Shown in pieces: positions 14,289 through 60,022 of a stretch of 64,000 nucleotides of DNA. A program made the position numbers and the translations under genes. The stretch is taken from the NCBI GenBank assembly GCA_030145385.1, contig JAQYVU010000001.1, positions 124,001 to 188,000 of the forward strand. The letters are read 5' to 3'. The notes under the pieces are model-generated. The model saw only the letters and a program-made list of their open reading frames with translations. It made no database searches and was not told where the DNA came from. Every line of letters starts with the position of its first letter. Position 1 is the stretch's first letter. The stretch is from Desulfococcaceae bacterium (GTDB taxonomy: Bacteria > Desulfobacterota > Desulfobacteria > Desulfobacterales > Desulfosalsimonadaceae).

Positions 14289-14363
14289 GCGGGAATAACT
14301 CAGTGGTAGAGTGCGACCTTGCCAAGGTCGAAGTCGCGAGTTCAAATCTCGTTTCCCGCTCCA
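14289..14363 (+). tRNA. tRNA-Gly (GCC anticodon)
   Basis: Complete cloverleaf. The acceptor gcgggaa pairs with ttcccgc, the D arm is ctcagtggtagag, the anticodon stem cgacc/ggtcg encloses loop ttgccaa (GCC), and the T arm contains gttcaaatc. CCA is encoded at 14361-14363. Confidence 0.97.
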
Positions 14364-14371
14364 TTTTTTTT

Positions 14372-14446
14372 GGCGGCATAGCCAAGTGGTAAGGCAACGG
14401 CCTGCAAAGCCGCTATTCTCCAGTTCAAATCTGGATGCCGCCTCCA
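14372..14446 (+). tRNA. tRNA-Cys (GCA anticodon)
   Basis: The acceptor ggcggca pairs with tgccgcc, the anticodon loop ctgcaaa contains GCA, the T arm contains gttcaaatc, and CCA is encoded. It lies 8 bases after tRNA-Gly, so the two are probably co-transcribed. The many cysteine-rich Fe-S proteins here make a Cys tRNA fitting but not specially linked. Confidence 0.97.
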
Positions 14447-18761: not shown

Positions 18762-21017
18762 ATGAACGTTTATGAGGACTTGAAAACCGAACTTTTAACA
18801 ATCAATGAAAATGTCTCAATGCTGCTTGGGCGGATCAATGCCATGCCTGAAACATCTCAGCGTTCATTTCAGGGCTGGGAAAATATATGTCATAGTATCG
18901 AAAATCAGTTGTCAGAAGAATTAATCCGTGTTGCGGTGATCGGAACCATTAAATCCGGAAAATCCACATTGATTAATTCGCTGTTTGCAGGAGATTATCT
19001 TAAAAGAGGCGCGGGTGTTGTAACATCTATGGTAACCAGGGCCCGCCGTGGAGAACATCTCAAGGCAAAGCTGTATTTTAAGTCCTGGGATCAGGTCAAT
19101 GCGGATATTGAACGATCCCTGGTATTATTTCCCTCACTGGAGTGGCGGTCCCGAAAAGAACCGTTTGACATCTGCAGAAAATCGGACCGGGAAGAACTGA
19201 AACAGGCCCTGGGATCTCTTGAGACCAAGCACCTTTTAAGCAATGATACAAGAAATTTGAACAGTTTATACCTGTCATCGTATTTAAGAGGCTATGATCG
19301 TGTTAAGGATTTCCTTTCATCAGATGATTTAACCCGGGAGTTCAAATCAAAAGAGTTTTCAGCCCATCGTGATTTTTCCGGAAATGAGGTGCTGGCTTTT
19401 TATTTAAAAGATATCTCCCTTGAAATTGATTCCGGAGAAATTGAAAACAATATCGAGATCGCCGACTGCCAGGGCAGTGATTCCCCGAATCCGCTTCACA
19501 TGGCAATGATCCAGGACTACCTCCTGCAGGCAAATCTTTTAATCTATGTGATCAGCAGCAGGACCGGTATTCGCCAGGCGGATATTAATTTTTTGTCCAT
19601 GATTAAAAAAATGGGGATTATCGAGCATATTATTTTTGTGGTCAACTGTGACCTGTCCGAGCATGAATCCTATGATGAACTTCAGGTTCTGATCGGAAAA
19701 GTAAAAGAAGACCTCGCAATTATAAAAAACAATCCGGAAGTTTATACTTATTCCGCGTTGTTCAGCCTTTTTAATGCAAATCAGGGTACACTGTCTTCCA
19801 AAGATGTCCAGCGGCTGACGCAATGGGAGGCAGAGGAAAAGATTATATCTTTTTCAAGCGACCAGGAAAAACAGTTTGTCACGAATTTGCGCCGGGTCGT
19901 TACACGGCAGCGGTATGCCTTGCTGTTTAAAAACCATTTTGAACGCCTTAAAATGATCGTATCCGGATTAAACCACTGGATCCGGGTCAACCAGGATGTT
20001 CTGGCCAAGGGGGCGGATGAGGCATCCCGCCTGATGAAGAAAATCAAATCCCAGCAGAAAAAAACCAATCGCGTAAAATCAATGGTGAAAAGTACGCTGG
20101 AAGGAGCGGTGCAGCAGCTTAAGCGGGAAATCAGGTCGGATGTGGATCATTTTTTTGATTCCCGCTACGGAGAAGTGGTGCCCAGTCTGATTGAATTTGT
20201 CAAAAGTTATAACATTCAGCTCTACCAGTATCAGGACAGGGTGGCGGCGGAAGGTTTTTCCAACACGCTGTATCTGGTGTTCCAGGATTTCAAACACGGC
20301 ATTGATACGTATATGGCGGAAAACATTAATCCGCAGATCTTTAATTTTGTGAAAAACGAAGAAGACAAAATTAAAGAGTATTTTGAAACCATCACCGGTC
20401 CTTACGAGGTAATGGTCAATGACGCCTTGTCCGAATACAATGCAGCCATGGAGCGCCTGGGGCTGGGGGTGGCATCCGATTACCGGAAACCGGCAGCCGA
20501 CATTGACTTAAAAACTTTAAAACAGATTAAAAAACTGGAGTTTCCACCGGCTGCGGCTACCATGAATTACAGTACCGCGATTAAGACGGAAGCCATTATG
20601 CGGCTGGGGTTTTATAATTTTATCAAGCAAATCAAGCGGCTCATCCGGCAGCCGGTGAAAGATGAAGCCGCAAATGCCTTGAACGCCTTAAAAGATGCGA
20701 TCAAACGAATGAAAAAAGAAACTGAAGAAGGCCTGGTTTTTCATTTTAAGAATTACAGGGAAAATATTAAATTTCAGTATATTTTTCAGCTGGTGGATGC
20801 GGTGTCGGACAATATTTATGATGTCATGATGGAGCGGTTTCATGATTATACCCAGGATCTTTCCCTGTTAACCGGTTCAATGGTAAAAAACCAGGTTGAT
20901 AAAGACCATTTGTCTTCGTCTTTACAGGAGTGCGCATCAACAGTGGATGAGATATCCGCCGGGATCAGCCAATTCAGTGATCTGCTTAATAAAACAGTGA
21001 ATTCGAATCTGGATTAA
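18762..21017 (+). CDS. Bacterial dynamin-like GTPase
   Basis: 751 residues. The GTPase domain has G1 GTIKSGKST (61-69), a G2 Thr in VTSMVTRARRG, G3 DCQGSD and a G4-like VNCDLS. A long helical region follows with heptad-like stretches (about 420-751), as in dynamin/BDLP stalks; no transmembrane helix is obvious. Bacterial dynamins remodel or repair membranes; whether this one does is inference. An orphan ParA-type ATPase follows 75 bases later on the same strand, suggesting a shared job in positioning. G3 is DCQG rather than the usual DTPG. Confidence 0.8.
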   Translation: MNVYEDLKTELLTINENVSMLLGRINAMPETSQRSFQGWENICHSIENQLSEELIRVAVIGTIKSGKSTLINSLFAGDYLKRGAGVVTSMVTRARRGEHLKAKLYFKSWDQVNADIERSLVLFPSLEWRSRKEPFDICRKSDREELKQALGSLETKHLLSNDTRNLNSLYLSSYLRGYDRVKDFLSSDDLTREFKSKEFSAHRDFSGNEVLAFYLKDISLEIDSGEIENNIEIADCQGSDSPNPLHMAMIQDYLLQANLLIYVISSRTGIRQADINFLSMIKKMGIIEHIIFVVNCDLSEHESYDELQVLIGKVKEDLAIIKNNPEVYTYSALFSLFNANQGTLSSKDVQRLTQWEAEEKIISFSSDQEKQFVTNLRRVVTRQRYALLFKNHFERLKMIVSGLNHWIRVNQDVLAKGADEASRLMKKIKSQQKKTNRVKSMVKSTLEGAVQQLKREIRSDVDHFFDSRYGEVVPSLIEFVKSYNIQLYQYQDRVAAEGFSNTLYLVFQDFKHGIDTYMAENINPQIFNFVKNEEDKIKEYFETITGPYEVMVNDALSEYNAAMERLGLGVASDYRKPAADIDLKTLKQIKKLEFPPAAATMNYSTAIKTEAIMRLGFYNFIKQIKRLIRQPVKDEAANALNALKDAIKRMKKETEEGLVFHFKNYRENIKFQYIFQLVDAVSDNIYDVMMERFHDYTQDLSLLTGSMVKNQVDKDHLSSSLQECASTVDEISAGISQFSDLLNKTVNSNLD

Positions 21018-21092: not shown

Positions 21093-21872
21093 ATGGCCAA
21101 AAAAAATACACGTATTGTTGCCATCGCAAATGAAAAGGGCGGCGTTGGAAAGACGGCAACGGTCGTCAATCTGTCAGCTGCCTTGTCTATTGAAGGTCAA
21201 AAGGTTCTTGTTATTGACATGGATCCACAGCATAATACCACAAACGGTCTGGGCATAGATGCAACTGATGACAGCATAAGTATTTATGACCTGATCACCA
21301 ACGGCGGGGAGTACAAGACCCATGACGCGATTTGTCAGACCAAATGGGAAAAACTGGACCTGATTCCATCGCATATTGATCTTTCAGGAGCGGAAATTGA
21401 ACTGGTGGACGAAGAGGGTCGTGAAAACAGGCTCAAGGAAGTCATTGCCCAGGTCGCTGACAAATATGATGTCATTATCATGGACACGCCGCCGAGTCTT
21501 TCTCTGCTGACAATTAACGTATTTGCTGCTGCCAGTGAAGTCGTGGTGCCATGCCAGACTCACCCGTATGCGTATAAAGCCCTTGAAGATCTGTTTGATA
21601 CAATAGAAGACATTAAAGAAGATATTAATCCGGATATTATGATTTCAGGGATTATTCCGACTTTTTTTGATCAGCGAACAAAAATCAGCCGGGAAATTTT
21701 AGAAAGACTGCAAACCGATGACCGGTATAAGGATTTGCTGTTTGATACCCCCATACGTGCAAATACAACCATCACCGCCAGTTCAGATAAGGGTAAACCG
21801 GTTGTTTTTTATCGGAAAAGCAGTTACGGGGCAAATGACTACATGGCCCTGGCCCGCGAGTTTATCGGATAG
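21093..21872 (+). CDS. ParA/Soj-type partition ATPase (orphan)
   Basis: 259 residues with the deviant Walker A ANEKGGVGKTATVVNL, A' IDMDPQHNTTNG and Walker B IIMDTPPSLSLLT. There is no N-terminal HTH and no parB next door, so this is an orphan ParA/MinD-family ATPase rather than a standard chromosome-partition pair. Members position cellular cargo on the nucleoid or membrane. AGGATGGAGGA upstream is a good ribosome site. Its neighbour is a dynamin-like GTPase. Confidence 0.85.
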   Translation: MAKKNTRIVAIANEKGGVGKTATVVNLSAALSIEGQKVLVIDMDPQHNTTNGLGIDATDDSISIYDLITNGGEYKTHDAICQTKWEKLDLIPSHIDLSGAEIELVDEEGRENRLKEVIAQVADKYDVIIMDTPPSLSLLTINVFAAASEVVVPCQTHPYAYKALEDLFDTIEDIKEDINPDIMISGIIPTFFDQRTKISREILERLQTDDRYKDLLFDTPIRANTTITASSDKGKPVVFYRKSSYGANDYMALAREFIG

Positions 21873-21978: not shown

Positions 21979-22590
21979 ATGGGAGAACCCAGTACAAAAA
22001 ATGCTTTGATTGAATCAGCGATTCGAATGTTCCAGCAGAAAGGGTTTCAGATGACCCGGGTGTCGGATATCGTCTCTGATGCCGGCGTTGCCCAGGGTAC
22101 TTTCTATAATTATTTTCGTTCAAAGGAAGAGATTTTTCGAGATATCTGCAATGATTTTATTGATCAGGTGCAAAAAAAATTCATGGAAAGAACCGAACAT
22201 ATGTTTGACGGGGATACCTCTGATGAAGTGGTGAAAAACGTGCATCAGGTGGTCCGGGATCTTTTTCTGATTTATCATGAAAATTTAGATGTTGCAGAAC
22301 TCCTGTTCAGGGAGGGAATCGGTAATGGCGGTATATTTAAAGAGATATATGAAGGCATGCTGACCTTATTTCTTGAATTGATTGAAGAGCAGGTTGAAAA
22401 AGCAACTAAGCGGGGTTTTATCCATATCGAGGACGCCCAGATCGGTTCTGTTTTTCTGTTTGGTTTGTTTGAACGAAGTCTTTTATATTTTATGCTGATT
22501 CGGAAATCCACGGACCTGGAAAAACTCGAACGCGTGATGGTTGATTTTGTTTTAAAAGGCTTGTCTTTTGATTATAATTTTGGCGCTTGA
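21979..22590 (+). CDS. TetR/AcrR-family transcriptional regulator
   Basis: 203 residues. The N-terminal HTH reads MFQQKGFQMTRVSDIVSDAGVAQGTFYNYFRSKEEIF, a textbook TetR motif; the C-terminal ligand domain is helical and its ligand unknown. No efflux or catabolic gene is adjacent on this strand, so targets are probably the gene itself (operator at 21938-21957) and distant sites. Confidence 0.88.
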   Translation: MGEPSTKNALIESAIRMFQQKGFQMTRVSDIVSDAGVAQGTFYNYFRSKEEIFRDICNDFIDQVQKKFMERTEHMFDGDTSDEVVKNVHQVVRDLFLIYHENLDVAELLFREGIGNGGIFKEIYEGMLTLFLELIEEQVEKATKRGFIHIEDAQIGSVFLFGLFERSLLYFMLIRKSTDLEKLERVMVDFVLKGLSFDYNFGA

Positions 22591-22719: not shown

Positions 22720-24621
22720 TTAATGATGTTTTGCAGGAGAATGAGAAGTCTTTTTTGAGGCTGTTTTATCAACCGCGTTTTTATCTGTGGTTGTCGCTGG
22801 TTGCAAAGCTTTGATTTTAGCTTTTAAACCGGTCAGCGTTTTATTGATTTCTATAGTCTTCTTATTCAGCAGTTCTTTCTGGGCCTTATCCGTACCAAGA
22901 GACGTCGCTTTTAAAAGATTCTTTAAAGCTGCTTCGCATCCTTCAACCGTATTTTTTCCGGCAGCAACATCTGCTTTGTAAACCAAAAACTTAAAATTGA
23001 TTTGATTCAGCCGTGTTTTGGCCTCTTGTTTATAATGCATAGTCGGTGCAAATTTAATGGCCTTGTAAAGGTTGGATTTAATGGAATCAAAATCCAGCAC
23101 ACCTCTAGCTTTGGAAAGTGCCTCCGCTTTGCTGATATAATAGTCGAACGCCGGAACCAAGGCTTCTTTTTTGGCATAAACCGACTTGACCGGTTCTTTG
23201 ATAACTGCACCCGGCACACTCATTAGCAGTTTTTCACCGGTCGGTGAAAATTTTCCCTGCCAGATTTCAACCGCATTGTCAGCGGATTTGAGATAGTAAT
23301 TGTTTGTATTCATGGCACTGGCAATAATCAGCAATCCAAAAAAACCGCCGACCAGGGTAATAAACATTTTTACGGCACTGTTCATCGGGGGTTCGGTTGG
23401 TGCAGAAACAGTCGGCATAGCAGGCGGAGCCGGTGGTTTTGACGCTTTTTCCGCTTCCCGTTTAGCGGCAGCTTCTGCCTCGGCTTTTGCCTTTTCCGCA
23501 GCTTCCGTTTTAGCCTTTGCTTTGGCTTGAGCTTCTTTCTCAGCTTTGGCCTTAGCTTCCGCCTCTGCCTTGGCCTTTTCAGCGGCTTCCTTTTCAGCCT
23601 TTGCTTTAGCTTCAGCTTCAGCTTCAGCTTTTGCTTTTTCTTGAGCTTCTTTCTCAGCTTTGGCCTTAGCTTCCGCCTCTGCCTTGGCTTTTTCAGCGGC
23701 TTCCTTTTCAGCCTTTGCTTTGGCTTCAGCTTCAGCTTTTGCTTTTTCTTCAGCTTCTTTCTCAGCTTTGGCCTTAGCTTCCGCCTCTGCCTTGGCTTTT
23801 TCAGCGGCTTCCTTTTCAGCCTTTGCTTTGGCTTCAGCTTCAGCTTTTGCTTTTTCTTCAGCTTCTTTCTCAGCCTTTGCCTTAGCTTCCGCCTCTGCCT
23901 TGGCCTTTTCCGCAGCTTCCTTTTCAGCTTTGGCCTTAGCTTCCGATTCTGCCTTGGCTTTTTCTACTGCTTCTGCTGCTGTCGGCTCAGGCGTTTCGGC
24001 AACGGTCAGATCAAATGCTTTTGCCAGCAGGGCTTTGATCCTGTCCGCTTCTGCTTTATCAGTCGTTTCGACCGCCGGAGGAGCGGAAAAGCCCTTTTGA
24101 AATTCTTCGTCTGTGTCAGCAGCATACATTTTTTCCGGCTGCCAGGATTCAAACTTGAGCTTTAAGAGTTCCGGAATCGAGACCGTCTTTTTTTTCACCG
24201 GTGCCGCTTTTTTCTTGGCAGTCTTTTTTGGGGCTGTTGCTTGGGCTTTAGCCGGTTTTTCTATAGCGTTTAAGTCAAATTGTTTGCCCAAAAGCGCTTT
24301 AAGTTCCTTTGCTTTTGCTTTATCCGTTTCGTCGATCACCGGGGGGGCTGTAAAATTATTTAAATAATCTTCATCCGGGGTAACAGCAAGAAAGACTTCC
24401 GGGACCCAGGAACCAAAATCTTTTTTAAGTAAAGATTTTAACGTCGGTTTTTTGGGGGCAGCGGTTTTTTTCTTTGCAGCCGCCTTTTTGGGCGCTGCTT
24501 TAGCCTTTGGTGCGGCTTTTTTCTTTGGCGCAGCTTTTTTCTTTGGTGCGGCACTCTCTGTTTTTTTCTTCGGTGCGGTTTTCTTTTTTGTGGTCGATTT
24601 GGTTAAGCTTTTTTTTCCCAT
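22720..24621 (-). CDS. Histone-H1-like / TolA-like repetitive membrane protein
   Basis: 633 residues of unusual design. Residues 1-60 are a Lys/Ala/Pro tail like eukaryotic H1 or bacterial Hc proteins (KKKAAPKKKAAPKAKAAPKK). Residues about 61-118 and 149-206 are two copies of a roughly 55-residue unit (SLLKKDFGSWVPEVF / ELLKLKFESWQPEKM, then FTAPP / FSAPP and KAxxLKALLxKxFDL), separated by another basic linker. Residues 221-366 are eight copies of an 18-20 residue Ala/Lys/Glu unit predicted to form one long charged helix. A Pro-rich link precedes a single transmembrane helix (about 419-437), and about 195 residues follow, probably outside. There is no signal peptide, and the basic N side should be cytoplasmic. 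Function unknown; tethering DNA to the membrane is one possibility. Confidence 0.7.
   Translation of the reverse strand: MGKKSLTKSTTKKKTAPKKKTESAAPKKKAAPKKKAAPKAKAAPKKAAAKKKTAAPKKPTLKSLLKKDFGSWVPEVFLAVTPDEDYLNNFTAPPVIDETDKAKAKELKALLGKQFDLNAIEKPAKAQATAPKKTAKKKAAPVKKKTVSIPELLKLKFESWQPEKMYAADTDEEFQKGFSAPPAVETTDKAEADRIKALLAKAFDLTVAETPEPTAAEAVEKAKAESEAKAKAEKEAAEKAKAEAEAKAKAEKEAEEKAKAEAEAKAKAEKEAAEKAKAEAEAKAKAEKEAEEKAKAEAEAKAKAEKEAAEKAKAEAEAKAKAEKEAQEKAKAEAEAEAKAKAEKEAAEKAKAEAEAKAKAEKEAQAKAKAKTEAAEKAKAEAEAAAKREAEKASKPPAPPAMPTVSAPTEPPMNSAVKMFITLVGGFFGLLIIASAMNTNNYYLKSADNAVEIWQGKFSPTGEKLLMSVPGAVIKEPVKSVYAKKEALVPAFDYYISKAEALSKARGVLDFDSIKSNLYKAIKFAPTMHYKQEAKTRLNQINFKFLVYKADVAAGKNTVEGCEAALKNLLKATSLGTDKAQKELLNKKTIEINKTLTGLKAKIKALQPATTTDKNAVDKTASKKTSHSPAKHH
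23524..23961 (-). repeat. Tandem 54-bp coding repeat (eight units)
   Basis: Encodes eight units of KAKAEAEAKAKAEKEAxE, one of them 20 residues. The variable residue alternates A/E/A/E/A/Q, so the higher-order unit is a dimer of 108 bp. DNA identity between units is very high, which favours copy-number variation. It also creates long false antisense ORFs. Confidence 0.85.
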
Positions 24622-24801: not shown

Positions 24802-25638
24802 ATGAATAACTTAATTTTAAAGAAAAAAAACCTTGAATCCGGACTTCGTAAGCTTGATTCACTCGCGGTAGCGTTCTCGGGCGGTGTGGACAGTACCTTT
24901 CTGCTGGCGGTGGCTTCAAAAATATTTCAGGACAAAGGCCAATTTGTTGCTATAACCGCACAATCGCCTGTTCATCCTCAAAAAGACGTATCAATTGCCG
25001 AATTGTTTGCAAAAGAATATAATATTAATCATTTGATCATCCATTCCGGGGAAATGGATTCTTTTGCATTTACGGCAAATTCGCCGGATCGTTGTTATGT
25101 CTGTAAAAAAATAATTTTTGGACAGATAACAAAGTCTGCCGCGGAGCTGGGTATTTATCATATTGCCCATGGTGTCAATGTTGATGATCAAAGTGATTAC
25201 CGGCCCGGGATGAAAGCTGCCAGGGAAATGAACATCCTGTCGCCATTATTGGATGCGGGCCTGACGAAGAATGATATTCGGCAGTTGTCTAAAGAAATGG
25301 GACTTACCACCTGGGACAAACCCGCTTCAGGGTGTCTTGCGACCCGAATTCCCTATGGGGAAACCATAGATCTGAAAAAATTGAATATGGTTGAAACATC
25401 GGAAACCGTGTTGTCTGACCTTGGATTTAAAAATTGCCGTGTCAGGCATTACGGCGAGTTGGCAAAAATTGAAGTTTTGTCTGATCATATTGACCGTCTG
25501 CTTATTTCATCGGTCCGGAATCAAATTATTAATCAATTTAAAAAAATCGGATTTTTATATATTACCCTGGATCTGGAAGGCCATCAATCCGGCCGCCTGA
25601 ACCGCTCAGTGCCTGCCGATGTCGACACGTCAAAATAA
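24802..25638 (+). CDS. larE: LarE-type ATP-dependent sulfur transferase
   Basis: 278 residues, PP-loop synthetase. The ATP loop is AFSGGVDSTFLL, and RCYVCKK and WDKPASGCLATRIPYG are LarE landmarks. LarE inserts sulfur into the nickel-pincer cofactor of lactate racemase and related enzymes. Three cysteines (C98, C101, C178) match the arrangement reported for LarE proteins that bind a [4Fe-4S] cluster rather than sacrificing a single Cys; that assignment is inference. No larA, larB or larC lies in the window, so the partners are elsewhere or the substrate differs. Confidence 0.82.
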   Translation: MNNLILKKKNLESGLRKLDSLAVAFSGGVDSTFLLAVASKIFQDKGQFVAITAQSPVHPQKDVSIAELFAKEYNINHLIIHSGEMDSFAFTANSPDRCYVCKKIIFGQITKSAAELGIYHIAHGVNVDDQSDYRPGMKAAREMNILSPLLDAGLTKNDIRQLSKEMGLTTWDKPASGCLATRIPYGETIDLKKLNMVETSETVLSDLGFKNCRVRHYGELAKIEVLSDHIDRLLISSVRNQIINQFKKIGFLYITLDLEGHQSGRLNRSVPADVDTSK

Positions 25639-47612: not shown

Positions 47613-48773
47613 TTAAGCCGCAGAAAATGCTTTTTCTTGATCCAGCAGGGATTTCAAAAATGCTTCTAAACTTTCCGGTGTAAATACCATTTTATTCTTA
47701 ACAGCAAAGTCCCGGATATAATCCTTTAAAACAGCGGCCTGCTCCTTTGACACGTTATATCCTTTTTCTGACAGCAAGTGCTGAATCATTTTTGAACCAC
47801 TGTGACGACCGACAACATAAGATCCTCCTGAACGCCCAACGCTTTCCGGCAAAAACGGCTGAAATGCCATGGGATTTTCGATTAAACCGGCGCAATGGAT
47901 GCCGGATTCATGACTGAATACGCTGGCTCCGGTAATCGGTTTATCCACAGGAATCGAACGCTTTGACGCTTCAGAGACATATGAACAAATTGACAGCAAT
48001 TGTTTGGTTTGAATATCACACGTCGCAGGAGCCATTTGTTTTAAAGCAACAGCAACCTCTTCAAGGGCTGCGTTCCCGGCCCTTTCTCCTAAACCGTTTA
48101 CGGTGACGCTCAAAGCATCTGCACCGGATTCAAACGCGGTAATTGCATTGGCAGTTGCCATTCCCAAATCATTGTGCCCATGAAAATCTATTGCAAGGTC
48201 CGGAGCTGTTGTTTTTAATATTTTTATCAAATGCCGGATCTTTGATGGGCGGGTTATACCATTGGTATCCGCTATTCTCAAACGATGCGCGCCAAAATCG
48301 GCTGCATGCCGGGAAAATCGTTTTAAAAATTTCATGTCCGCCCGTGTGGCATCTAACGCACCCACGGATACATAATCAAAATATCGTTTTCCAAAAGGCA
48401 CCAGTGTCTCAACTTGATGCATCACCCAGCTTTCTGTTTTGCCCATTACGGCCATCAATATATCGGAGACAGGGAAACTGATATGTACGCCTTCCGTACC
48501 GCTTCTCGCAGCCAGGGCAATATCACTTCGAACTGCACGGCACCAGGCAGTCAGGCGGCAATCCAGCTGTTGGGAAACCATCTGGACAATCTCGAAACGT
48601 TCCTGTTCACCCATGGCAGGGATACCTGCTTCAATTTCATTGACCCCCAGCTCCGACAGCATGCAGGCGATATTTATTTTTTCTTCCAGGGTAAACACAA
48701 CTCCCGGTGCCTGTTCGCCGTCCCGCAAAGTGGAATCGATGATCCAGGCATGATGCTCATGTAAATTTTGCAT
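47613..48773 (-). CDS. nifV: Homocitrate synthase NifV
   Basis: 386 residues from ATG 48773. IIDSTLRDGEQAPGVVF is the isopropylmalate/homocitrate synthase signature; DFHGHNDLGMATANAITAFESGADALSVTVNGLGERAGN and HESGIHCAGL follow. It makes homocitrate, the organic ligand of FeMo-co. Position at the end of the nif operon supports NifV over a housekeeping synthase. A longer in-frame start overlaps the upstream gene and is unlikely. Confidence 0.9.
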   Translation of the reverse strand: MQNLHEHHAWIIDSTLRDGEQAPGVVFTLEEKINIACMLSELGVNEIEAGIPAMGEQERFEIVQMVSQQLDCRLTAWCRAVRSDIALAARSGTEGVHISFPVSDILMAVMGKTESWVMHQVETLVPFGKRYFDYVSVGALDATRADMKFLKRFSRHAADFGAHRLRIADTNGITRPSKIRHLIKILKTTAPDLAIDFHGHNDLGMATANAITAFESGADALSVTVNGLGERAGNAALEEVAVALKQMAPATCDIQTKQLLSICSYVSEASKRSIPVDKPITGASVFSHESGIHCAGLIENPMAFQPFLPESVGRSGGSYVVGRHSGSKMIQHLLSEKGYNVSKEQAAVLKDYIRDFAVKNKMVFTPESLEAFLKSLLDQEKAFSAA

Positions 48774-48780
48774 TGTTACG

Positions 48781-49245
48781 TCACCTGAATTTTTTTCGAA
48801 GGCAAATAAGTTGTGTCGGGTTCCAGTCGTTTTTTTTATAAAATGACAGAGCCGTCTCATTGGCGGAATCCGCCAGCAACTGCAGTCTTTTCAAACCACA
48901 CACGTTGCTCCAGGATTCGATACTTTCCAGAAGCATCCTGCCAATCCCCTTTCCCCGCCATTGGTTATGGACAACCAGATCTTCAACCATCGCTGCCACT
49001 CCGCCTTCTACTGTTGAAATATGGGTTTGGGCGGAACACATGCCGATGACTTTATTGTCATATTCCGCGACTTTAATGCATTTATGCTTGCGGCATCCAT
49101 CAATCATCAACCGCAGCCCCAGGCGGTGTTTGTCCGCATCAAATTCAAAATCCACCTCAATGGCAAACAATTCACACAGCAGAATCACCAGCGCATCAAT
49201 ATCCGAGTGTTCGGCATTTCTGATAATTAGATCTTTCTGGTTCAT
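48781..49245 (-). CDS. GNAT-family acetyltransferase in the nif operon
   Basis: About 154 residues from ATG 49245 (MNQKDLIIRNAEHSDIDALV). GNAT motif A: VEDLVVHNQWRGKGIGRMLLESI, then LADSANETALSFYKKNDW. Substrate unknown. It overlaps the modC end by about 50 bases and lies 7 bases before nifV, so it is co-transcribed with nitrogen fixation genes. A link to nitrogenase control is speculation. Confidence 0.75.
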   Translation of the reverse strand: MNQKDLIIRNAEHSDIDALVILLCELFAIEVDFEFDADKHRLGLRLMIDGCRKHKCIKVAEYDNKVIGMCSAQTHISTVEGGVAAMVEDLVVHNQWRGKGIGRMLLESIESWSNVCGLKRLQLLADSANETALSFYKKNDWNPTQLICLRKKFR

Positions 49246-52274: not shown

Positions 52275-53546
52275 TCACCCGCAGCCGATTGCATTTCCGC
52301 CACACTTACACGGTCCAATATCATGTTTTTTCATATGCGACAGGTCATGACCCGAAAAGATCGCACTCAGGGCTTCATCAATTAAGCCTTCCACTTCAAA
52401 AATCCGGAACCCGTATTCAGATAAAATCGTTTTGGGTGTTTCCCCGATACCGCTGACAAGTATCGTGCTGCAATCAGATAAAAGATGCGCTAGAGCCTGC
52501 CAACGGTTTGCACCGGTGCCTTCAACCGGTGTTTCCCGCGTTTCCAGCAAATGAATATTCCCATTTTTCTTACCGTAAATTGCCAGCCGCTGCGCCTGGC
52601 CGAGATGTTGGTTGACGAGAACCCCCTCAAGTGTAGCGATGGCAACATTGGGTCTATTAACATCAAGTGACGGTATCACATCATCTCTAATCTGCTCACA
52701 GGCCTGAAGCGTTTTCATCAGCCCTTTATCCGGTTTTTCTCCGAGCAGGCCCACAGCATCTGCCCGGCACCGGGTGCAGTGATGCATGAGCGGCAGGTAT
52801 TTTCCTGCAACGTCACGAACCGCTTTCATCATGTCGGCAGATGGTTCTTCAATATTTTCAAACGCAGAACCTTCATTGGGATAATAAGCCACGCAGTTAT
52901 GAATGTCTGCGCCCAGATCAGATATGGTTTTTGCCACCGCTTCCACATGCTGATCATTGATGCCGGGTATGATAATGGTATTGATCTTTGTGGTAATGCC
53001 GCGCTCTTTCAGACCTTTTACCGCTTCTATCTGTTTTTCAAGCAGCATTTTAAAACCGCTTTTCACATGGTAAACATGTTTGTTGGCACGCACCCATGCA
53101 TAAATCTGTTCTCCCACGGCCGGATCAACCGCATTCACTGTAATGGTCACATGGCTGACATCCAGTTCTTTTAGTTCATCCAGATAAGGACCGATATTCA
53201 GGCCATTGGAGGCAAGACACAGCATCATTTCCGGATATTTTTCCCGAACCAGCTGTAAAGTCTCCATGGTTTCATCCGGATTGGCAAACGGATCACCCGG
53301 ACCGGCAATGCCCACAACAGATATGTTTCCCTTTTGCTTCATCACTTCACCCAAATAGACCATAGCCTGTTTGGGTGTCAGAATACCGCTGCTGACGCCG
53401 GGCCGGCTTTCATTGACACAATCGAATTTCCGGTTGCAGAAATTGCATTTGATGTTGCAACGGGGTGCTACCGGCAGGTGAACCCGGCCGAATTTGTGTT
53501 TGGCCTTCACATTAAAGCATGGGTGTTGTTCCAGATTTAGAGCCAT
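52275..53546 (-). CDS. nifB: FeMo-co biosynthesis protein NifB (with NifX-like domain)
   Basis: 423 residues. The radical-SAM cluster motif CNIKCNFCNRKFDC (CxxxCxxC) is followed by RPGV; GIAGPGDPFAN and HCTRCRADAVG follow. The C-terminal ~115 residues (VAIATLEGVLVNQHLGQAQRLAIYG onward) form a NifX/NafY-like cofactor-binding domain, as in many anaerobes. NifB builds NifB-co, the 8Fe precursor of FeMo-co. Confidence 0.95.
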   Translation of the reverse strand: MALNLEQHPCFNVKAKHKFGRVHLPVAPRCNIKCNFCNRKFDCVNESRPGVSSGILTPKQAMVYLGEVMKQKGNISVVGIAGPGDPFANPDETMETLQLVREKYPEMMLCLASNGLNIGPYLDELKELDVSHVTITVNAVDPAVGEQIYAWVRANKHVYHVKSGFKMLLEKQIEAVKGLKERGITTKINTIIIPGINDQHVEAVAKTISDLGADIHNCVAYYPNEGSAFENIEEPSADMMKAVRDVAGKYLPLMHHCTRCRADAVGLLGEKPDKGLMKTLQACEQIRDDVIPSLDVNRPNVAIATLEGVLVNQHLGQAQRLAIYGKKNGNIHLLETRETPVEGTGANRWQALAHLLSDCSTILVSGIGETPKTILSEYGFRIFEVEGLIDEALSAIFSGHDLSHMKKHDIGPCKCGGNAIGCG

Positions 53547-53607: not shown

Positions 53608-53684
53608 AGTAGGCCGGGATTCATTTCCCGGCACAATTATTTGGGCCTTGAAAACCAGATGTCGGGTAAGACACTCGACCTACA
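53608..53684. repeat. REP/BIME-type palindromic repeat, copy C
   Basis: gtaggccgggattcatttcc/cggc faces gtcgggtaagacactcgacctac. GTAG at both ends. It overlaps the last codons of nifN and lies in the nifN-nifB gap. Confidence 0.8.
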
Positions 53685-55059
53685 TATACGAATATCCAAT
53701 GTCTGACGTCTTCTGACGCTGATCCAAAATCGTATTGGCTATCTGATCAAAGAGGTTCTGCGCCCCGCGATATCCGACATGCAGAATCCGTTGCCCACCG
53801 ATCCGGTCATGGATGGGAAATCCTGCCCGAACCAGGGGAATCTCCTTGCGGCGGGTGACGGAATAGCCCTTGCTGTTTCCAATAAACAGTTCCAAAGACA
53901 TTGACTCGACTTCTGCTTCAATATTTTTAAAATCCATTCCTTCAAGAATTTTCATTTTTTCACTTATATTCTTATCCATGATCTCATTGAGAGTGGATTC
54001 CAGGCGTCCACTTTCACCGCCGGATGCACAAAGAACCGGCACAATCCCGATTTCCGAAAGAAATGACGCCAGTCCCGCCACCAGGTCTTCTTCCCCATAC
54101 AGTGCGGCTTTTAGCCCATTGACATATTTGTGCCCGTCCACATAGGCATCCACCAGCCGCCCACGCTCCTCAACGTATTTCTGGGGAGTCGGTTTTCCGG
54201 ATATTTCTTCCAACGCTTCAAACAGGCGATCCGTTTCTTTGATGCCGATGGGCAGCCCCAACTCATAAGATGGCACATCAAATGTCTCGTTCAGGTACTT
54301 TGCCGCAGATTCGGATTCGGAATTTAATATTCTTCCCATCTGAAGGCTGGCCGAAGCATTGCCGGCATCTTTGATCTGATCTATGGTGGTCCCGCCGGCC
54401 GGAATTTTCTGATATTGCTGCCACAGTGTTCCGTCCATGGTTTGTGAATAATCCGGAAGCAACATATGTTTCAGATCGAAATCAGTAAAAATTTCTTTTA
54501 AATATCTTAAATCCGCAGTCGACAGCATCCCGGCAAATACATTGATATGATCTTTCCGGGTAGTGGTTTTCTCTGCTGCCAGTGTTTTGACGATTTCAAG
54601 GTTTGCGCGATGAAATCCGGTTATATGTGTTCCGCTGTAACTGGGCGTTGATATGTGAACAATCGGGGGTGTCGGTATCTCTTTACGCTGTTTCAGAAAT
54701 TCATAAATAAACATATTCACATCATCTCCAATGGTTTCAGACAGACAGGTGGTTGCCACCCCGATCATTTCCGGCTGATACTGGGCAATAATGTTTTCCA
54801 AAGCGATTTTGATATTTGCTCCGCCCCCGAAAATGGCGGTATCTTCCCCGAAATTCGAACTGGCAATGTCAATGGGTTCTTTAAAATGACTGATCAGATA
54901 CCGTCGAATATAGGTTGAACACCCCTGGGAACCGTGCAGCAGCGGAACTGCCCCGGAAATGCCCCGGATCACCAGTGACGCGCCCAAAGGCGAACACAGC
55001 TTGCACGGATTCTGTGTGGATGTGTGATTTTTGCTTATTTTTTTTCGGGCAGTATTCAT
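53680..55059 (-). CDS. nifN: FeMo-co assembly scaffold NifN
   Basis: 459 residues, NifK/NifN type. NPCKLCSPLGASLVIRGI, HGSQGCSTYIRRYLISHFKEP, ATTCLSETIGDDV and GNSKGYSVTRRKEIPLVR mark the family. It forms the NifEN scaffold with NifE. Its C-terminal codons overlap a REP-like element. Confidence 0.93.
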   Translation of the reverse strand: MNTARKKISKNHTSTQNPCKLCSPLGASLVIRGISGAVPLLHGSQGCSTYIRRYLISHFKEPIDIASSNFGEDTAIFGGGANIKIALENIIAQYQPEMIGVATTCLSETIGDDVNMFIYEFLKQRKEIPTPPIVHISTPSYSGTHITGFHRANLEIVKTLAAEKTTTRKDHINVFAGMLSTADLRYLKEIFTDFDLKHMLLPDYSQTMDGTLWQQYQKIPAGGTTIDQIKDAGNASASLQMGRILNSESESAAKYLNETFDVPSYELGLPIGIKETDRLFEALEEISGKPTPQKYVEERGRLVDAYVDGHKYVNGLKAALYGEEDLVAGLASFLSEIGIVPVLCASGGESGRLESTLNEIMDKNISEKMKILEGMDFKNIEAEVESMSLELFIGNSKGYSVTRRKEIPLVRAGFPIHDRIGGQRILHVGYRGAQNLFDQIANTILDQRQKTSDIGYSYM

Positions 55060-55095
55060 GGTATTAATTCCTTCTTATTTCCCATCATTTTTCAT

Positions 55096-55227
55096 GTTCA
55101 AGAGCTGTTCTGGAATCGACATTTCAGCTGCGAAGAAGTTTACTTTCCATCAATTTATTTCTTCCCGTTTCCAGTATCATTCTTAAAATGAGTTGGAGCG
55201 GTTCAGGAACAAGGCATTTCAGCCTGA
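55096..55227. repeat. Imperfect direct repeat in the nifE-nifN gap
   Basis: gagctgttctggaatcgaca-ttcagct (from 55102) recurs as gagcggttcaggaacaaggc-tttcagcc (from 55196). It is the only long nif gap without an obvious palindrome. Confidence 0.4.
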
Positions 55228-55239
55228 AGACATAGTCTT

Positions 55240-56634
55240 TTATTTCGATGGCTGAATAACAACGTTCCTGAGCTGCTCCGGCTCATTTCCTGAGCGGTGT
55301 GGGGCGAACTGCCACACCGGACTCGTCACTGTATTAAAAATTTCTTTTGCAAAATTCAGCATGCCTTCAAATCCGGCCAACGGTGTTTTCCTCTCATGGT
55401 TATGGTCACAAAACCCGATGCCCATTTTATAGGCAATGGGCCGTTCCTTGACCCCGCCGATAAACAAATCGGCATTTTTCTCAATAATATATTTGGACAG
55501 TTCCAGGGGATTGGCATCATCTAAGATAACGGTGCCGTCATTGCACATGTCCCTGAGTATTTCATAGTCTTTTTCATTACCGGTCTGGGAACCCGCAAGC
55601 ACCACTTCCATTCCCAGATTGCGCAGCGCCTTGATCAGAGAAAATGCCTTGAACGCCCCGCCCACATAGATGGCCGCCCGTTTTCCGGAAACCTGCTCCC
55701 TGATTTTCACCAGCTCAGGATAGATCCGGTTGACTTCAGAACGGACCAGCTCCTGCGCTTTTTCCATAATTTCCGGCTGATCCGGGAAATGTTCGGCCAC
55801 GTCATACAATGCTTTGGCCATGTCTTCGATGCCGAAGTAGGACACCCGGATAAACGGAATCCCGTATTTTTCTTTCATCATTTCGGCAAGCGGGGTCATG
55901 GAACCGGAGCACTGAACCACATTAAGTTTTGCGCCATGCGCCCTTTTGATATCTGCCACCCGGCCGTCACCGGTCATAATGGACACAACATCCACGCCTA
56001 TTTTGCGATAGTAATCCTTGATCATCCAGGCTTCACCGCCGATATTAAACTCACCCATGATGTTTATGGAAATCGGACTGATATCTGCCGTTTCACCGGT
56101 TCCGATCAATTGCGCCAGGGCATCGCATGCCGCCTTATACCCGTCTTTTTTAGTCCCTTTAAAGCCTTCAGAATGTACCGGCAGCACTGGAATGCCTGCT
56201 TCTTTACCGACTTTGCGGCAAACAGCTTCCACATCATCGCCGATAATCCCGACAATACAGGTAGAATAAACAAAAGCGGCTTTTGGCTGATATTGTTCAA
56301 TCAGCTCTGTTAAAGCAGCATAAAGTTTTTTTTCAGCGCCGAAAATGACGTCTCTTTCCTGCAGATCTGTTGAAAAGCTTAACCGATGCAGTTCCGGACC
56401 GGATGACAATGCCCCGCGAATATCCCATGTGTATGCCGCGCAGCCAATGGGACCGTGAATCAGATGCAATGCATCCGCCACCGGATATAAAACCACCCGT
56501 GACCCGCAGAACACACAGGCCCGCTGACTGACGGAACCGGCCAGGCTGTGTTTTTCGCACTGCATGTTAAACGGTTCAGACCCTTTCCGATAAATCTGCT
56601 CTTCGCGTTCTTTGAGTATGGGTATTGTGGTCAT
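55240..56634 (-). CDS. nifE: FeMo-co assembly scaffold NifE
   Basis: 464 residues, NifD/NifE type. RACVFCGSRVVLYPVADALH, HGPIGCAAYTWDIRG, STCIVGIIGDDV, SEGFKGTKKDGY and CSGSMTPLAEMMKEKYGIPF are NifE features. It holds the cofactor precursor during assembly with NifN. Confidence 0.94.
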   Translation of the reverse strand: MTTIPILKEREEQIYRKGSEPFNMQCEKHSLAGSVSQRACVFCGSRVVLYPVADALHLIHGPIGCAAYTWDIRGALSSGPELHRLSFSTDLQERDVIFGAEKKLYAALTELIEQYQPKAAFVYSTCIVGIIGDDVEAVCRKVGKEAGIPVLPVHSEGFKGTKKDGYKAACDALAQLIGTGETADISPISINIMGEFNIGGEAWMIKDYYRKIGVDVVSIMTGDGRVADIKRAHGAKLNVVQCSGSMTPLAEMMKEKYGIPFIRVSYFGIEDMAKALYDVAEHFPDQPEIMEKAQELVRSEVNRIYPELVKIREQVSGKRAAIYVGGAFKAFSLIKALRNLGMEVVLAGSQTGNEKDYEILRDMCNDGTVILDDANPLELSKYIIEKNADLFIGGVKERPIAYKMGIGFCDHNHERKTPLAGFEGMLNFAKEIFNTVTSPVWQFAPHRSGNEPEQLRNVVIQPSK

Positions 56635-56705
56635 GGCTGTGCCTTTCTATAATAAGGAATCATTAATCCTGATTTTTTTGGTTTTAATTTTATATTTTCA
56701 TTAAG

Positions 56706-56805
56706 GGAATTAGGCAGAAGGTCGAAGGCTGAAGGAACTGCTGACTTAAAATCGAAATTGTTGTGTTGCTTTTTACTTCAGCCTTCTACCTTATACCTTC
56801 AACCT
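56706..56805. repeat. Palindromic intergenic repeat, family E, copy 4
   Basis: aggcagaaggtcgaaggctg faces cttcagccttctaccttata and accttcaacc. It lies in the nifK-nifE gap and touches the nifK stop. Confidence 0.6.
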
Positions 56806-58183
56806 ACATAACCAATTCCATGTTGACGTCCGTCGCATCCCGATCCTGCCGATCCATCAATGCGTTTAATATCTTTTCAAGCATCATAATGCCGCCCCGG
56901 TAACCGACGGTAGGCAGATAACTGTGCCCGATCCGGTCATAAATCGGAAACCCGTATCGGATGTAGGGAATGTCTTCATCCTTGGCGATATATTTCACAT
57001 ACGTGTTACCGATTACCAGATCGACGGGATCATTTTTCACCCACTGGTGGAACAGATACATGTCACCGCCTAACTTGATATTCACATCACACGGCACATC
57101 TTTTACGGCTTCGCGCAATTCAGCTTCAAACTTTTTCCCAGCCGGTGAGCCAGTCACAATATGGGTCGGGACCATGTCCAGCGACACCAAAAACTTGGTC
57201 AAAGCCAGCAGCTGATCCGGATCACCCACCAGGCCCACTTTTTTACCGTAGAAATACTGGTGCATGTCAGATATGATATCCATCATCTGGCCCCGTTCAA
57301 ACATCAGGGAATCCGGTACATTCTCACCGGTCATGGTGCGCAGCGCATCAATAAACATGTCGGTCCCGGTCAATCCAATGGGAAGATCCAGAACCTTACA
57401 CGGCACCTTGCACTTGGAGTCCAGGGCAAATCCGGCAGCGCTCGATGCCAGGTTTCCCAATGCAAGGGTTCCCATGCTCTGCCCGGTCTTTTTAAGCGCA
57501 TCAATTTTTACGCCGCCGTCGGGATACATTTTAAAATGGCCGGTCAACGGTCCGTTCAACACGCCGGAGGTATCCGGGAACATGATGATGGGAATTCCCA
57601 TGGCCGCACAGATCCGCTTGATTTCCTCCATATCGGACGGTTCCACATAACCGGGAACAATATTCACTGTTTTTGTTTTTTCCCCGCCGGGTTCTGCAAA
57701 ATAATCCACCATGGCTTTGGTCATATTTGAAAAGCCGGTCACATGAGATCCCACATAACTGGGCGTATTGGCGTGAATGACATATTTGCCTTCCGGTACT
57801 TTCCCACCTGCAGCAGCTTTGCTGGCGATCTGCGGAATATCATCACCGATGGTTTCCGATAAACAGGTGGTGTGTACGGCAATCACATCCGGTTTATATA
57901 CCGTAAACATGTTGTCGATAGCCTGAACCAGATTGGCCTGGCCGCCGAAAACCGATGAACCTTCGGTAAATGCACTGGTGGCAGCCATCACCGGTTCCTT
58001 GTAATGCCGTGTCAATGCGCTTCGATGATATGCGTAGCAGCCCTGAGATCCATGACTGTGGGGAAGACATCCGTGAATTCCCAGGGCAGCATACATGGCA
58101 CCGATCGGCTGGCAGGTTTTTGCCGGATTGACCGTCAAAGCGCTTCGTTCTTTTATTTTTGTAGTTGTGTGTTTTAATAGCAT
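56804..58183 (-). CDS. nifK: Nitrogenase MoFe protein beta subunit NifK
   Basis: 459 residues, the short form typical of anaerobe nitrogenases, lacking the N-terminal ~50-residue extension of Azotobacter NifK. P-cluster cysteines appear in NPAKTCQPIGAMYAALGI, HGSQGCYAYH and HTTCLSETIGDD. Together with NifD it forms the catalytic MoFe protein. Confidence 0.96.
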   Translation of the reverse strand: MLLKHTTTKIKERSALTVNPAKTCQPIGAMYAALGIHGCLPHSHGSQGCYAYHRSALTRHYKEPVMAATSAFTEGSSVFGGQANLVQAIDNMFTVYKPDVIAVHTTCLSETIGDDIPQIASKAAAGGKVPEGKYVIHANTPSYVGSHVTGFSNMTKAMVDYFAEPGGEKTKTVNIVPGYVEPSDMEEIKRICAAMGIPIIMFPDTSGVLNGPLTGHFKMYPDGGVKIDALKKTGQSMGTLALGNLASSAAGFALDSKCKVPCKVLDLPIGLTGTDMFIDALRTMTGENVPDSLMFERGQMMDIISDMHQYFYGKKVGLVGDPDQLLALTKFLVSLDMVPTHIVTGSPAGKKFEAELREAVKDVPCDVNIKLGGDMYLFHQWVKNDPVDLVIGNTYVKYIAKDEDIPYIRYGFPIYDRIGHSYLPTVGYRGGIMMLEKILNALMDRQDRDATDVNMELVM

Positions 58184-58255
58184 CTTATTTGTTCTCCTTG
58201 GACGTTTGATGGCCCCAAAAAATATCTGAATGGCTAAGTTAATAGTTCCATATGC

Positions 58256-58330
58256 AAGGTGTAGTGGTTTTTCAGGCTCGAAATTATACAGGTCGTATCT
58301 TGAGTGTCTGAAAAACCGCTACAACGCCGC
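58256..58330. repeat. Palindromic repeat in the nifD-nifK gap
   Basis: gtagtggtttttcag (58261-58275) pairs with ctgaaaaaccgctac (58308-58322), 14 of 15 bases. Would form a stem in the nif mRNA between nifD and nifK. Confidence 0.7.
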
Positions 58331-58354
58331 AGGTGGAATTATTAGCGACGCCAT

Positions 58355-60022
58355 TTATTCGTCAAAGACATAGTTGGCAGCCAATTCCGGATTCTTCTCC
58401 CATGGTGCTTTTAAAAATCCCCAGATCCTGGAGTTCACCATTCGTTCAATATCCTTGTAGAAATTTATCGCGCCCACAAAACCAGCATAAGGGCCGCCAT
58501 AATCATAGGAGTGGAGCTGTTTCATGGGAATACCGTGTTTCTGGACCGCGTATTTTTCCTTGATGCCGGCACAGAAGATGTCCGGTTTGAATGATTCAAT
58601 CAGTTTGTCTGCTTCATGCTGGGTTAAATCATCGATAATCATAGAGCCGGTTTTCATTTCCGTCATCATGCCGTCGTATTCGGAAAACGCGAGTCCATCT
58701 TCCATCAGCTTTTTTAACTCTTCTGAACTCTTCCGGGGTTTGAAACGATCCTGATCCGGGCTGATTTCCAGCTCCTCAATATTTCTACTGTCTGCGTCCA
58801 CCTTGATATCCGGTAACACTTTGCGGCCTTCATAATCATCCCGATGTCCGAATTCATATCCGGCGCTAAGAGTTTCCATGCCCATCTCTGTAAACAATTC
58901 CTGGTAATGGTGAGCTCGGGAACCGCCCACAAACATCATAGCCCGTTTCCCTTTGGTTCGGGGCCGGATCATCTGCAGCGCATTTTCGATTTCCGGCATT
59001 TCCCCGGCAATGACGGCTTCGACTTTTTCCGTCAGCTTCGGATCTTCAAAATACTGGGCAATTTTCCGCAACGACTTGGCGGTTGCCTGGGCGCCGATAA
59101 AATTCACTTTAATCCAGGGAAGACCGAATTTTGTTTCCATCATTTCCGCGACATAATTGATCGATCGATGGCACATGATCAGGTTCAGATCCGCGGTATG
59201 GGCGTTGGCAAAATCATCGATGCTTGAATTGCCGGAAAATGTGGAAACCAGGGTAATGCCGCATTTTTCAAAAATCCGTTCGATTTCAAATGCGTCCCCG
59301 CCGATGTTATATTCACCGAGCAGGTTGAGTTTAAATTCCCCCTCACGGACGGTATCGTCGTTGCCGATCACGTTTTTGAAAATCCCGTTGTTGGCAATAT
59401 GATGGCCGGCTGACTGGCTGACGCCTTTGTATCCTTCACAGGAAAAACCGAATACATTGATTCCCAGCCTGGCCTTCATTTTCCGGCTGACAGCATGGAT
59501 ATCATCACCGATCAGGCCCACCGGGCAGGTGGCAAATACGGCAATGGCTTTGGGATGAAAATTGTCATACGCTTCCTGGATTGCCTGTTCCAGCTTTTTT
59601 TCCCCGCCGAAAATGATTTCCTTGTCCTGCATGTCCGTTGAAAAGCAGTACGGCATAAAATTGTGACCATCTTCGCTGGTACTCGCGTCTGTCTGGTTCC
59701 GTCGTGTCAGCCAGCTGTAAAAGCCGCAGCCGATGGGACCATGCGTAATATTTATAATGTCACGGGTCGGCCCCAGGACAACGCCCTTGCACCCGGCGTA
59801 ACAGCATCCCCGCTGTCCGATCAGGCCGGGTATGGTCCGGACGTTGGATGAAATTTCCGGGACGTTCTGGTCCTTGTCGACCTTATTAATAACAATCTGT
59901 TTGGCGCGCTTGCGCGCGATTTTTGGCGGATAATCACGCAGCATTTCCTGCTTGATTTTTTCAGGATCCTTACCGTCGAGCAGATGTTTATCTGCAATAT
60001 CGGCATTTGCTGTAGATGCCAT
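58355..60022 (-). CDS. nifD: Nitrogenase MoFe protein alpha subunit NifD
   Basis: 555 residues. P-cluster Cys in RGCCYAGCKGVV, HGPIGCGFYSW and FATCPVGLIGDD; FeMo-co ligands Cys in LIMCHRSINYV and His in MKQLHSYDYGGPY; the substrate-site His/Gln in GVSQSAGHHIANN. A ~50-residue insertion in the C-terminal third (SRNIEELEISPDQDRFKPRK...) is typical of Clostridium/methanogen/sulfate-reducer NifD (cluster III). AGGAGATACAT supports the start. Molybdenum-type, not V or Fe-only. Confidence 0.97.
   Translation of the reverse strand: MASTANADIADKHLLDGKDPEKIKQEMLRDYPPKIARKRAKQIVINKVDKDQNVPEISSNVRTIPGLIGQRGCCYAGCKGVVLGPTRDIINITHGPIGCGFYSWLTRRNQTDASTSEDGHNFMPYCFSTDMQDKEIIFGGEKKLEQAIQEAYDNFHPKAIAVFATCPVGLIGDDIHAVSRKMKARLGINVFGFSCEGYKGVSQSAGHHIANNGIFKNVIGNDDTVREGEFKLNLLGEYNIGGDAFEIERIFEKCGITLVSTFSGNSSIDDFANAHTADLNLIMCHRSINYVAEMMETKFGLPWIKVNFIGAQATAKSLRKIAQYFEDPKLTEKVEAVIAGEMPEIENALQMIRPRTKGKRAMMFVGGSRAHHYQELFTEMGMETLSAGYEFGHRDDYEGRKVLPDIKVDADSRNIEELEISPDQDRFKPRKSSEELKKLMEDGLAFSEYDGMMTEMKTGSMIIDDLTQHEADKLIESFKPDIFCAGIKEKYAVQKHGIPMKQLHSYDYGGPYAGFVGAINFYKDIERMVNSRIWGFLKAPWEKNPELAANYVFDE

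Follow-up and report, generated by a model that had tools for sequence, protein, structure and literature searches.

The attachment of the nucleoid to the membrane is understood in few bacterial models. Lys-rich protein arms bind promiscuously, and a cytoplasmic DNA-binding domain at the N-terminus, followed by one transmembrane (TM) helix and an outer domain, is the layout of CadC/ToxR-type receptors. TolA has a long Ala/Lys/Glu helix in a protein with a single TM helix. In Mycobacterium tuberculosis, Rv3852 is described as a membrane-anchored nucleoid-associated protein with KAAK/PAAK repeats and a C-terminal hydrophobic membrane tether (PMC8233713). H1-like tails of bacterial proteins, including that of AlgP, have been tied to DNA and to polyphosphate granules (PMC9239181), and the positively charged N-terminal tail of the Myxococcus protein FrzCD is described as binding the nucleoid independently of DNA sequence (PMC5716589). 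The term orphan is applied to the many ParA-family ATPases for which no partner has been identified (PMC10241942). The activating partners of ParA/MinD proteins, such as PomX, ParB and McdB, are described as having a short, positively charged and probably disordered N-terminus on otherwise unrelated scaffolds (PMC7993993, PMC10241942).

Here we analysed a gene for a 633-residue protein, together with its neighbours and relatives, in a stretch of DNA of 64,000 nucleotides (the window; Table 1). We consider that its product may be a protein of the inner membrane that docks nucleoid DNA, DNA-bound ParA or both through its basic N-terminus, and give this reading a probability of about 0.5. It draws on the basic start of the protein, the helix-turn-helix (HTH) domains of its relatives, the nearby orphan ParA and the H1-like precedents.

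Table 1. Features of the locus, in coordinates of the window.
Feature	Position	Strand	Basis
Dynamin-like GTPase, paired with ParA, proposed partner	18762..21017	+	domain match
Orphan ParA ATPase, KGGVGKT Walker A, proposed partner	21093..21872	+	domain match
TetR-family regulator between ParA and the 633-residue gene	21979..22590	+	domain match
Whole gene, 633 residues plus stop	22720..24621	-	single intact ORF, ATG start
Variable C-terminal tail, residues 606-633, plus stop	22720..22806	-	dN/dS
Outer (probably periplasmic) domain, residues 438-605: three-stranded sheet, then TPR-like helices	22807..23310	-	model
Transmembrane helix, residues about 416-437	23311..23376	-	hydrophobicity and structure model
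Pro-rich linker, residues 394-413	23383..23442	-	composition
E/K/A rod, residues 207-393, eight 18-residue units	23443..24003	-	TRF and unit matching
Repeat domain copy 2, residues 146-206	24004..24186	-	profile matches; low-confidence model
Lys/Ala-rich linker, residues 119-145	24187..24267	-	composition
Repeat domain copy 1, residues 58-118	24268..24450	-	profile matches
Basic Lys/Ala/Pro/Thr arm, residues 1-57	24451..24621	-	composition
Start motif MGKKSLTKSTTKKK at the beginning of the arm	24580-24621	-	motif comparison

A sequence-only reading had described the protein as a basic Lys/Ala/Pro tail, a duplicated domain, eight charged repeats of 18 residues, a single TM helix and an outer domain. 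Since the parts were found in this order, the description is correct. The ORF is immediately preceded by the purine-rich stretch AAAAGAGG. Residues 1-60 consist of 40% K, 25% A, 12% P and 12% T, with a net charge of +23, and show the Lys/Ala/Pro-rich low-complexity tail by which proteins of the Hc1/AlgP type are recognized. The charge of the arm, +23, compares with a maximum of +18 for any 57-residue stretch in 528 neighbouring ORFs from the window and related loci. When searched against its own genome, the arm matched only itself, one further match (E 0.157) being another frame at the same place.

The rod was recovered both by unit matching, with units starting at residues 224, 242, 260, 278, 296, 314, 334 and 352 and agreeing with the unit at 16-18 of 18 residues, and by TRF, which gave a 54-bp period and 8.1 copies in the DNA. 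At i+4 the rod has 29 E-to-K pairs (mean 13.2, maximum 23 in 1000 shuffled sequences) and 43 K-to-E pairs (mean 13.1, maximum 22). Such an excess is the expectation for a single charged helix, and as a continuous helix the 187 residues would span about 28 nm. The eight most hydrophobic 19-residue segments all start at residues 414-421, and the TM region forms one long helix in the structure model. Over 68 sequences, a positive-inside count of the charges flanking the TM helix gave +171/-140 on the N-terminal side and +127/-98 on the C-terminal side, a balance that favours neither orientation.

The outer domain was confidently folded in the prediction (pLDDT 90.0, pTM 0.75), with a three-stranded sheet next to the TM helix and helices beyond the sheet. 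Foldseek returned nothing for this model at E 0.001, and VIA, with Z values of 8-9.4 that lie inside the stated background for helical models, gave TPR-like, MIT, Bro1, BamD and other chains. Comparison of 46 outer-domain members with Pfam gave scattered weak matches, the commonest being MIT (6/46, best E 0.00043), with TPR_8 in 2/46 (best E 0.031); among PDB sequences, designed TPR chains matched the outer domain at E 0.00015 and weaker. Modelled alone, the repeat domain gave a low-confidence structure (pLDDT 71.2, pTM 0.29), as would fit a peptide-like element that folds on a partner. Its only match in Pfam was S_100, at E 0.16 in one of 17 sequences, and no PDB sequence matched it up to E 1.

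The helix had also been called TolA-like. The rod does resemble TolA; membership of the TolA family fails on both the score and the presence of a separate tol cluster. The TolA model TIGR02794 scored 27.8 bits, where 59.45 are needed, in a match confined to residues 180-336. Moreover, the genome carries tolQ-, tolR-, tolA-, tolB- and pal-like genes in that order on contig C47, where TolB_N alone was matched to a model and the remaining names come from visual inspection of sequence and gene order. The long Ala/Lys/Glu helix and the single TM helix are thus shared with TolA, whereas the order of the parts is reversed, no TolA domain was found and the genome holds a tolA-like gene elsewhere.

We searched for the core of the protein, defined as the TM helix plus the outer domain, in 98 genomes of the same order, 64 of which are of better quality. 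It was present in 70/98, the window's own genome included, and in 51 of the 64 better genomes. Each of these genomes gave a single match, apart from G019, where the core is split into two pieces. The duplicated domain was present in 49/98. A sample of the phylum, 395 genomes in all, contained 18 with the core: 16 among its 18 order members, counting the window's own genome, and 2 among the other 377. Metagenome-assembled genomes account for 16 named relatives; 12 of them are titled Desulfobacteraceae or Desulfobacterales, and others include Candidatus Desulfaltia bathyphila and an Olavius algarvensis Delta 4 endosymbiont. The window protein matched no Pfam family at E 0.1, and hence neither a curated H1-like model nor an HTH or TolA domain; four matches in NCBIfam were all far under their cut-offs. 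Judged by title and abstract opening, searches of a CC-licensed library listed no paper on the family. Judged by its absence from the libraries searched (Pfam and NCBIfam), the protein family is new, and it would work like a variant of known tethers or ParA partners. The statement that no protein is known with this arrangement may hold for the arrangement as a whole; it does not extend to an H1-like part followed by a C-terminal membrane stretch, which is known from Rv3852. The likeness to Rv3852 in H1-like basic repeats followed by a C-terminal TM segment is one of working, by description. Rv3852 belongs to another phylum, however, and its description as available to us includes no outer domain, E/K rod or repeat domain.

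The two core-bearing genomes found outside the order in the phylum sample have the same core with a different N-terminus, which matches a homeodomain-like HTH family (PF13384, 35.0 and 47.6 bits, cut-off 24.6). Searches centred on these two gave 18/117 and 6/118 genomes, in overlapping sets that include some order members. We read the core genes of 18 genomes outside the order, G487 and G494 among them. In 15 of the 18 an HTH domain takes the place of the arm, and three (G495-G497) have short forms; an additional short copy of the core is present in both G490 and G491. When the N-termini were scanned, HTH families matched in 15 of 15 at E 0.01. In G522 and G524, which belong to one family (f166), the start motif MGRESLFKPTDKKKKK is placed before the HTH, and a trace of it, MGKKILFEST, is seen in G100 (f68). 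By analogy, the presence of an HTH at the same end of relatives is the best evidence that the N-terminus would be cytoplasmic and DNA-related, in a window protein that itself lacks an HTH. Together with the ParA and dynamin neighbours described below, it gives indirect support to a putative cytoplasmic DNA-binding end on a membrane-anchored rod. The HTH forms outside the order have the layout of CadC/ToxR-type receptors, from which the window protein differs in having no HTH by Pfam. A separate observation from HTH-bearing lineages is a small membrane protein of about 100 residues (GG..WW.PFL..G.LP..AAYLGF) encoded next to the core gene at loci L195-L197 and L200-L204; a search of the window with it gave no match at E 1e-4.

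In the window, the gene is convergent with that of the TetR-family regulator, behind which lie ParA and then the dynamin-like GTPase; in G018, a TetR gene with a similar start also follows the dynamin gene. The locus of the core gene, as fetched, also contains dynamin in the window and in four relatives of its genus, and ParA in the window and three of them (G003, G005 and G007). Outside the order, the core gene of G522 and of G524 is immediately preceded by a ParA gene with 48-50% identity, an incomplete copy in the case of G522, and that of G100 is followed directly by a dynamin homologue with 31% identity. The core therefore adjoins ParA or dynamin in three families, namely in the window's genus, in f68 (dynamin) and in f166 (ParA). 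We classed ParA copies scoring at least 287 bits as orphan, the next paralogues reaching at most 214; this split was set after the scores had been viewed and is supported by a tree for the sequences in it (31 orphan, 18 Soj-like and 2 from outside the order). In that tree, a split with an SH-aLRT value of 99, and with long branches flagged, separates the 18 Soj-like paralogues from the window's orphan ParA and the G522 and G524 proteins.

Dynamin was present in 80/98 order genomes and orphan ParA in 46/98. We observed that 44 of 47 orphan ParA copies lie 11-389 bp downstream of a dynamin gene on the same strand, and the same pair is found in G131, outside that set. Dynamin and orphan ParA are thus a recurrent two-gene unit in the order; nothing on such a pair was evident in the titles and abstract openings listed by searches of a CC-licensed library. 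Dynamin was also found in 15/19 core-bearing genomes queried, and in 14/18 of those outside the order, where it was sought in core-bearing genomes only, so that these counts speak for co-occurrence, which is weaker than specificity. G522 and G524 gave no dynamin match (the genomes are 79% and 62% complete). Within the order, fetched core loci from outside the window's genus had no nearby dynamin or close ParA, and neither gene lay near the HTH-form core in the f122 loci looked at. The five nearest genes on each side of the core include a peptide-ABC-type gene in 32/70 loci and a LarE-like gene in 36/70. In the window this is a LarE-like sulfur transferase gene at 24802-25638 (+), divergent from the 633-residue gene; the similar genes of the 36 loci likewise lie upstream on the other strand.

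The ParA link offers a second function for the basic start, which may dock or activate ParA. A positively charged N-terminal extension, a trait of many (not all) partners that activate the ParA ATPase, is present in the window protein, which resembles the ParA/MinD activating partners in this respect and in having a ParA gene nearby in some lineages. It differs from them in being membrane-bound by prediction, and in that orphan ParA is absent from many core genomes. FrzCD, in turn, is described as a chemoreceptor in cytoplasmic clusters rather than as a membrane rod (PMC5716589).

Co-occurrence was assessed by Fisher tests, which ignore descent. Over the 98 genomes, dynamin was present in 66 and missing from 7 core-bearing genomes, as against 14 and 11 of the remainder (p=0.0004); the corresponding counts for ParA were 40 and 33, as against 6 and 19 (p=0.01). 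Among core genomes, those with an arm had ParA in 39 cases and lacked it in 25, as against 0 and 6 for those without an arm (p=0.006), and for dynamin the counts were 60 and 4, as against 3 and 3 (p=0.011), descent again being ignored. In the 64 better genomes, p values were 0.040 (core and dynamin), 0.0087 (core and ParA), 0.016 (arm and ParA) and 0.0048 (arm and dynamin), also with descent ignored. Phylogenetic pairing of the arm with ParA or dynamin yielded one pair on well supported branches. In these tables G011, G015 and G059, which have repeat-domain matches only, were counted as core-bearing. For the arm, G023, G048 and G052 were left out, G062 and G070 were entered as arm-bearing, and nine 5'-truncated genes (G029, G032, G039, G067, G068, G078, G086, G088 and G090) were counted as arm-bearing, as was G006; 10 of the 64 genomes on the arm side of the tables stand there without a reading of the arm in their core contig.

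Orphan ParA is missing from 25 of the 64 core genomes counted as arm-bearing, including the near-complete G004 and the single-contig G045, and so it cannot be the sole partner of the arm. These absences favour a plainer explanation, in which the protein is a membrane-anchored nucleoid-associated protein whose arm binds DNA non-specifically, ParA and dynamin being unrelated neighbours. The composition of the arm, the HTH-bearing relatives and the precedent of Rv3852 point the same way, whereas the adjoining of core and orphan ParA or dynamin in three families argues against it. Overall, we regard the plain tether as rather unlikely.

The start motif MGKx[STN]Lx[KQR]ST occurs in its strict form in 39/55 arm-bearing sequences with a complete 5' end. 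The arm carries a net positive charge (+7 to +57) in every sequence that has both a complete 5' end and a called repeat domain, and its length ranges from 31 to 192 residues. The duplicated domain, present in the window protein as two copies of about 60 residues, is found in zero to four copies among relatives; its profile detected 88 copies in 54 of 74 family sequences (11 of them cut at the 5' end), with a consensus centred on W-x-P-E, F-x-A-P-P and L-L-x-K-x-F-D-L. One protein (locus L088, genome G045) contains four near-identical copies, the sequences of which suggest a recent tandem duplication. Among the sequences listed, the position of the rod is constant and its sequence is not, being of E/K/A, AAAEK or Pro/Glu type. 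We compared the window protein with five relatives by dN/dS and obtained values of 0.12-0.23 for the outer domain, 0.06-0.25 for those repeat copies that could be aligned, and 0.75-1.03 in four of five comparisons for the C-terminal tail (0.20 in the fifth). The arm gave 0.10-0.17 in four of five comparisons and 0.59 in one, the values for arm and rod being rough because the alignments are of low complexity. In most comparisons the arm and repeats look to be under purifying selection.

Short forms without an arm were found in 6/98 order genomes and at loci L148-L150. These forms require at least five changes on an outer-domain tree with few well supported branches, which was built without G006, G011, G015, G023, G048, G052, G070 and the 'b' contigs and with G062 coded as arm-bearing. 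Two genomes were kept out of the armless count: in G062 an arm and repeat precede a stretch of Ns, and G070 has a basic stretch upstream together with Ns. The armless forms at L148, L149, L150 and L119 (G058), consisting of the TM helix and outer domain only, come from Eth-SRB1, Candidatus Desulfaltia bathyphila and relatives.

It is conceivable that the function lies in the outer TPR-like domain, as part of an envelope or cell-wall complex, and that the N-terminal part serves as a spacer or sorting tail that the protein can do without. The TM helix and outer domain are indeed the constant part, repeat number and rod vary freely, and the armless forms, including those of G495-G497 outside the order, would be expected. 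The low dN/dS of the arm in four of five comparisons and the recurrence of the start motif are at odds with a dispensable N-terminus, and we judge this explanation unlikely. It overlaps in part with both the docking reading and the plain tether. Less probable still is that the arm binds another polyanion, such as polyphosphate, ribosomal RNA or acidic lipid, and that the protein organizes this rather than the nucleoid. The association of H1-like AlgP with polyphosphate granules and the promiscuity of Lys-rich arms would allow it, but the HTH at the same end of relatives and the ParA neighbours speak for the nucleoid. Finally, a TolA-like periplasmic rod, with its N-terminal part outside and linking the inner to the outer membrane, can hardly be reconciled with a sub-threshold match on the rod, a TM helix that follows the rod, tol-pal-like genes elsewhere and the HTH of relatives.

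Returning to the docking reading, we infer topology, DNA binding, ParA binding or activation, rod length and purpose as follows. The protein would sit in the inner membrane with its N-terminus inside, and its basic arm would dock the nucleoid through direct contact with DNA, through DNA-bound ParA, or through both. The conserved basic start of the arm may act as a peptide that docks ParA or activates its ATPase, the repeat domains may bind a partner, and the E/K/A rod would be a spacer of up to about 28 nm. Anchorage in the envelope would come from the outer sheet/TPR-like domain. Together, the protein, the orphan ParA and the dynamin-like GTPase may position the nucleoid, or keep it, at a site on the membrane. 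A broader version, which we put forward tentatively, is that the protein is the membrane-fixed partner of a dedicated ParA and dynamin-like GTPase, tying the nucleoid to the inner membrane across much of the order, with an H1-like arm that evolved from, or was exchanged with, an HTH. If true, this would be a bacterial counterpart of the chromatin tethers of the nuclear envelope, coupled to a membrane-remodelling GTPase. Confirmation of the docking reading would reveal a new bacterial way of tying the chromosome to the membrane, in relatives of known sulfate reducers. The family is a candidate both for nucleoid-membrane attachment and for the partner of an orphan ParA, and the variable repeat number, the natural losses of the arm and the HTH found in its place make the idea testable.

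Elsewhere in the window, the only RNA families found were two tRNAs, encoded by adjacent tRNA-Gly and tRNA-Cys genes at 14289-14446 (+). Four consecutive genes of the nitrogenase component 1 type (PF00148) lie at 53680-60022 (-), and alongside them are a radical-SAM/FeMo-Co gene at 52275-53546 and an HMGL/homocitrate-synthase-like gene at 47613-48860.
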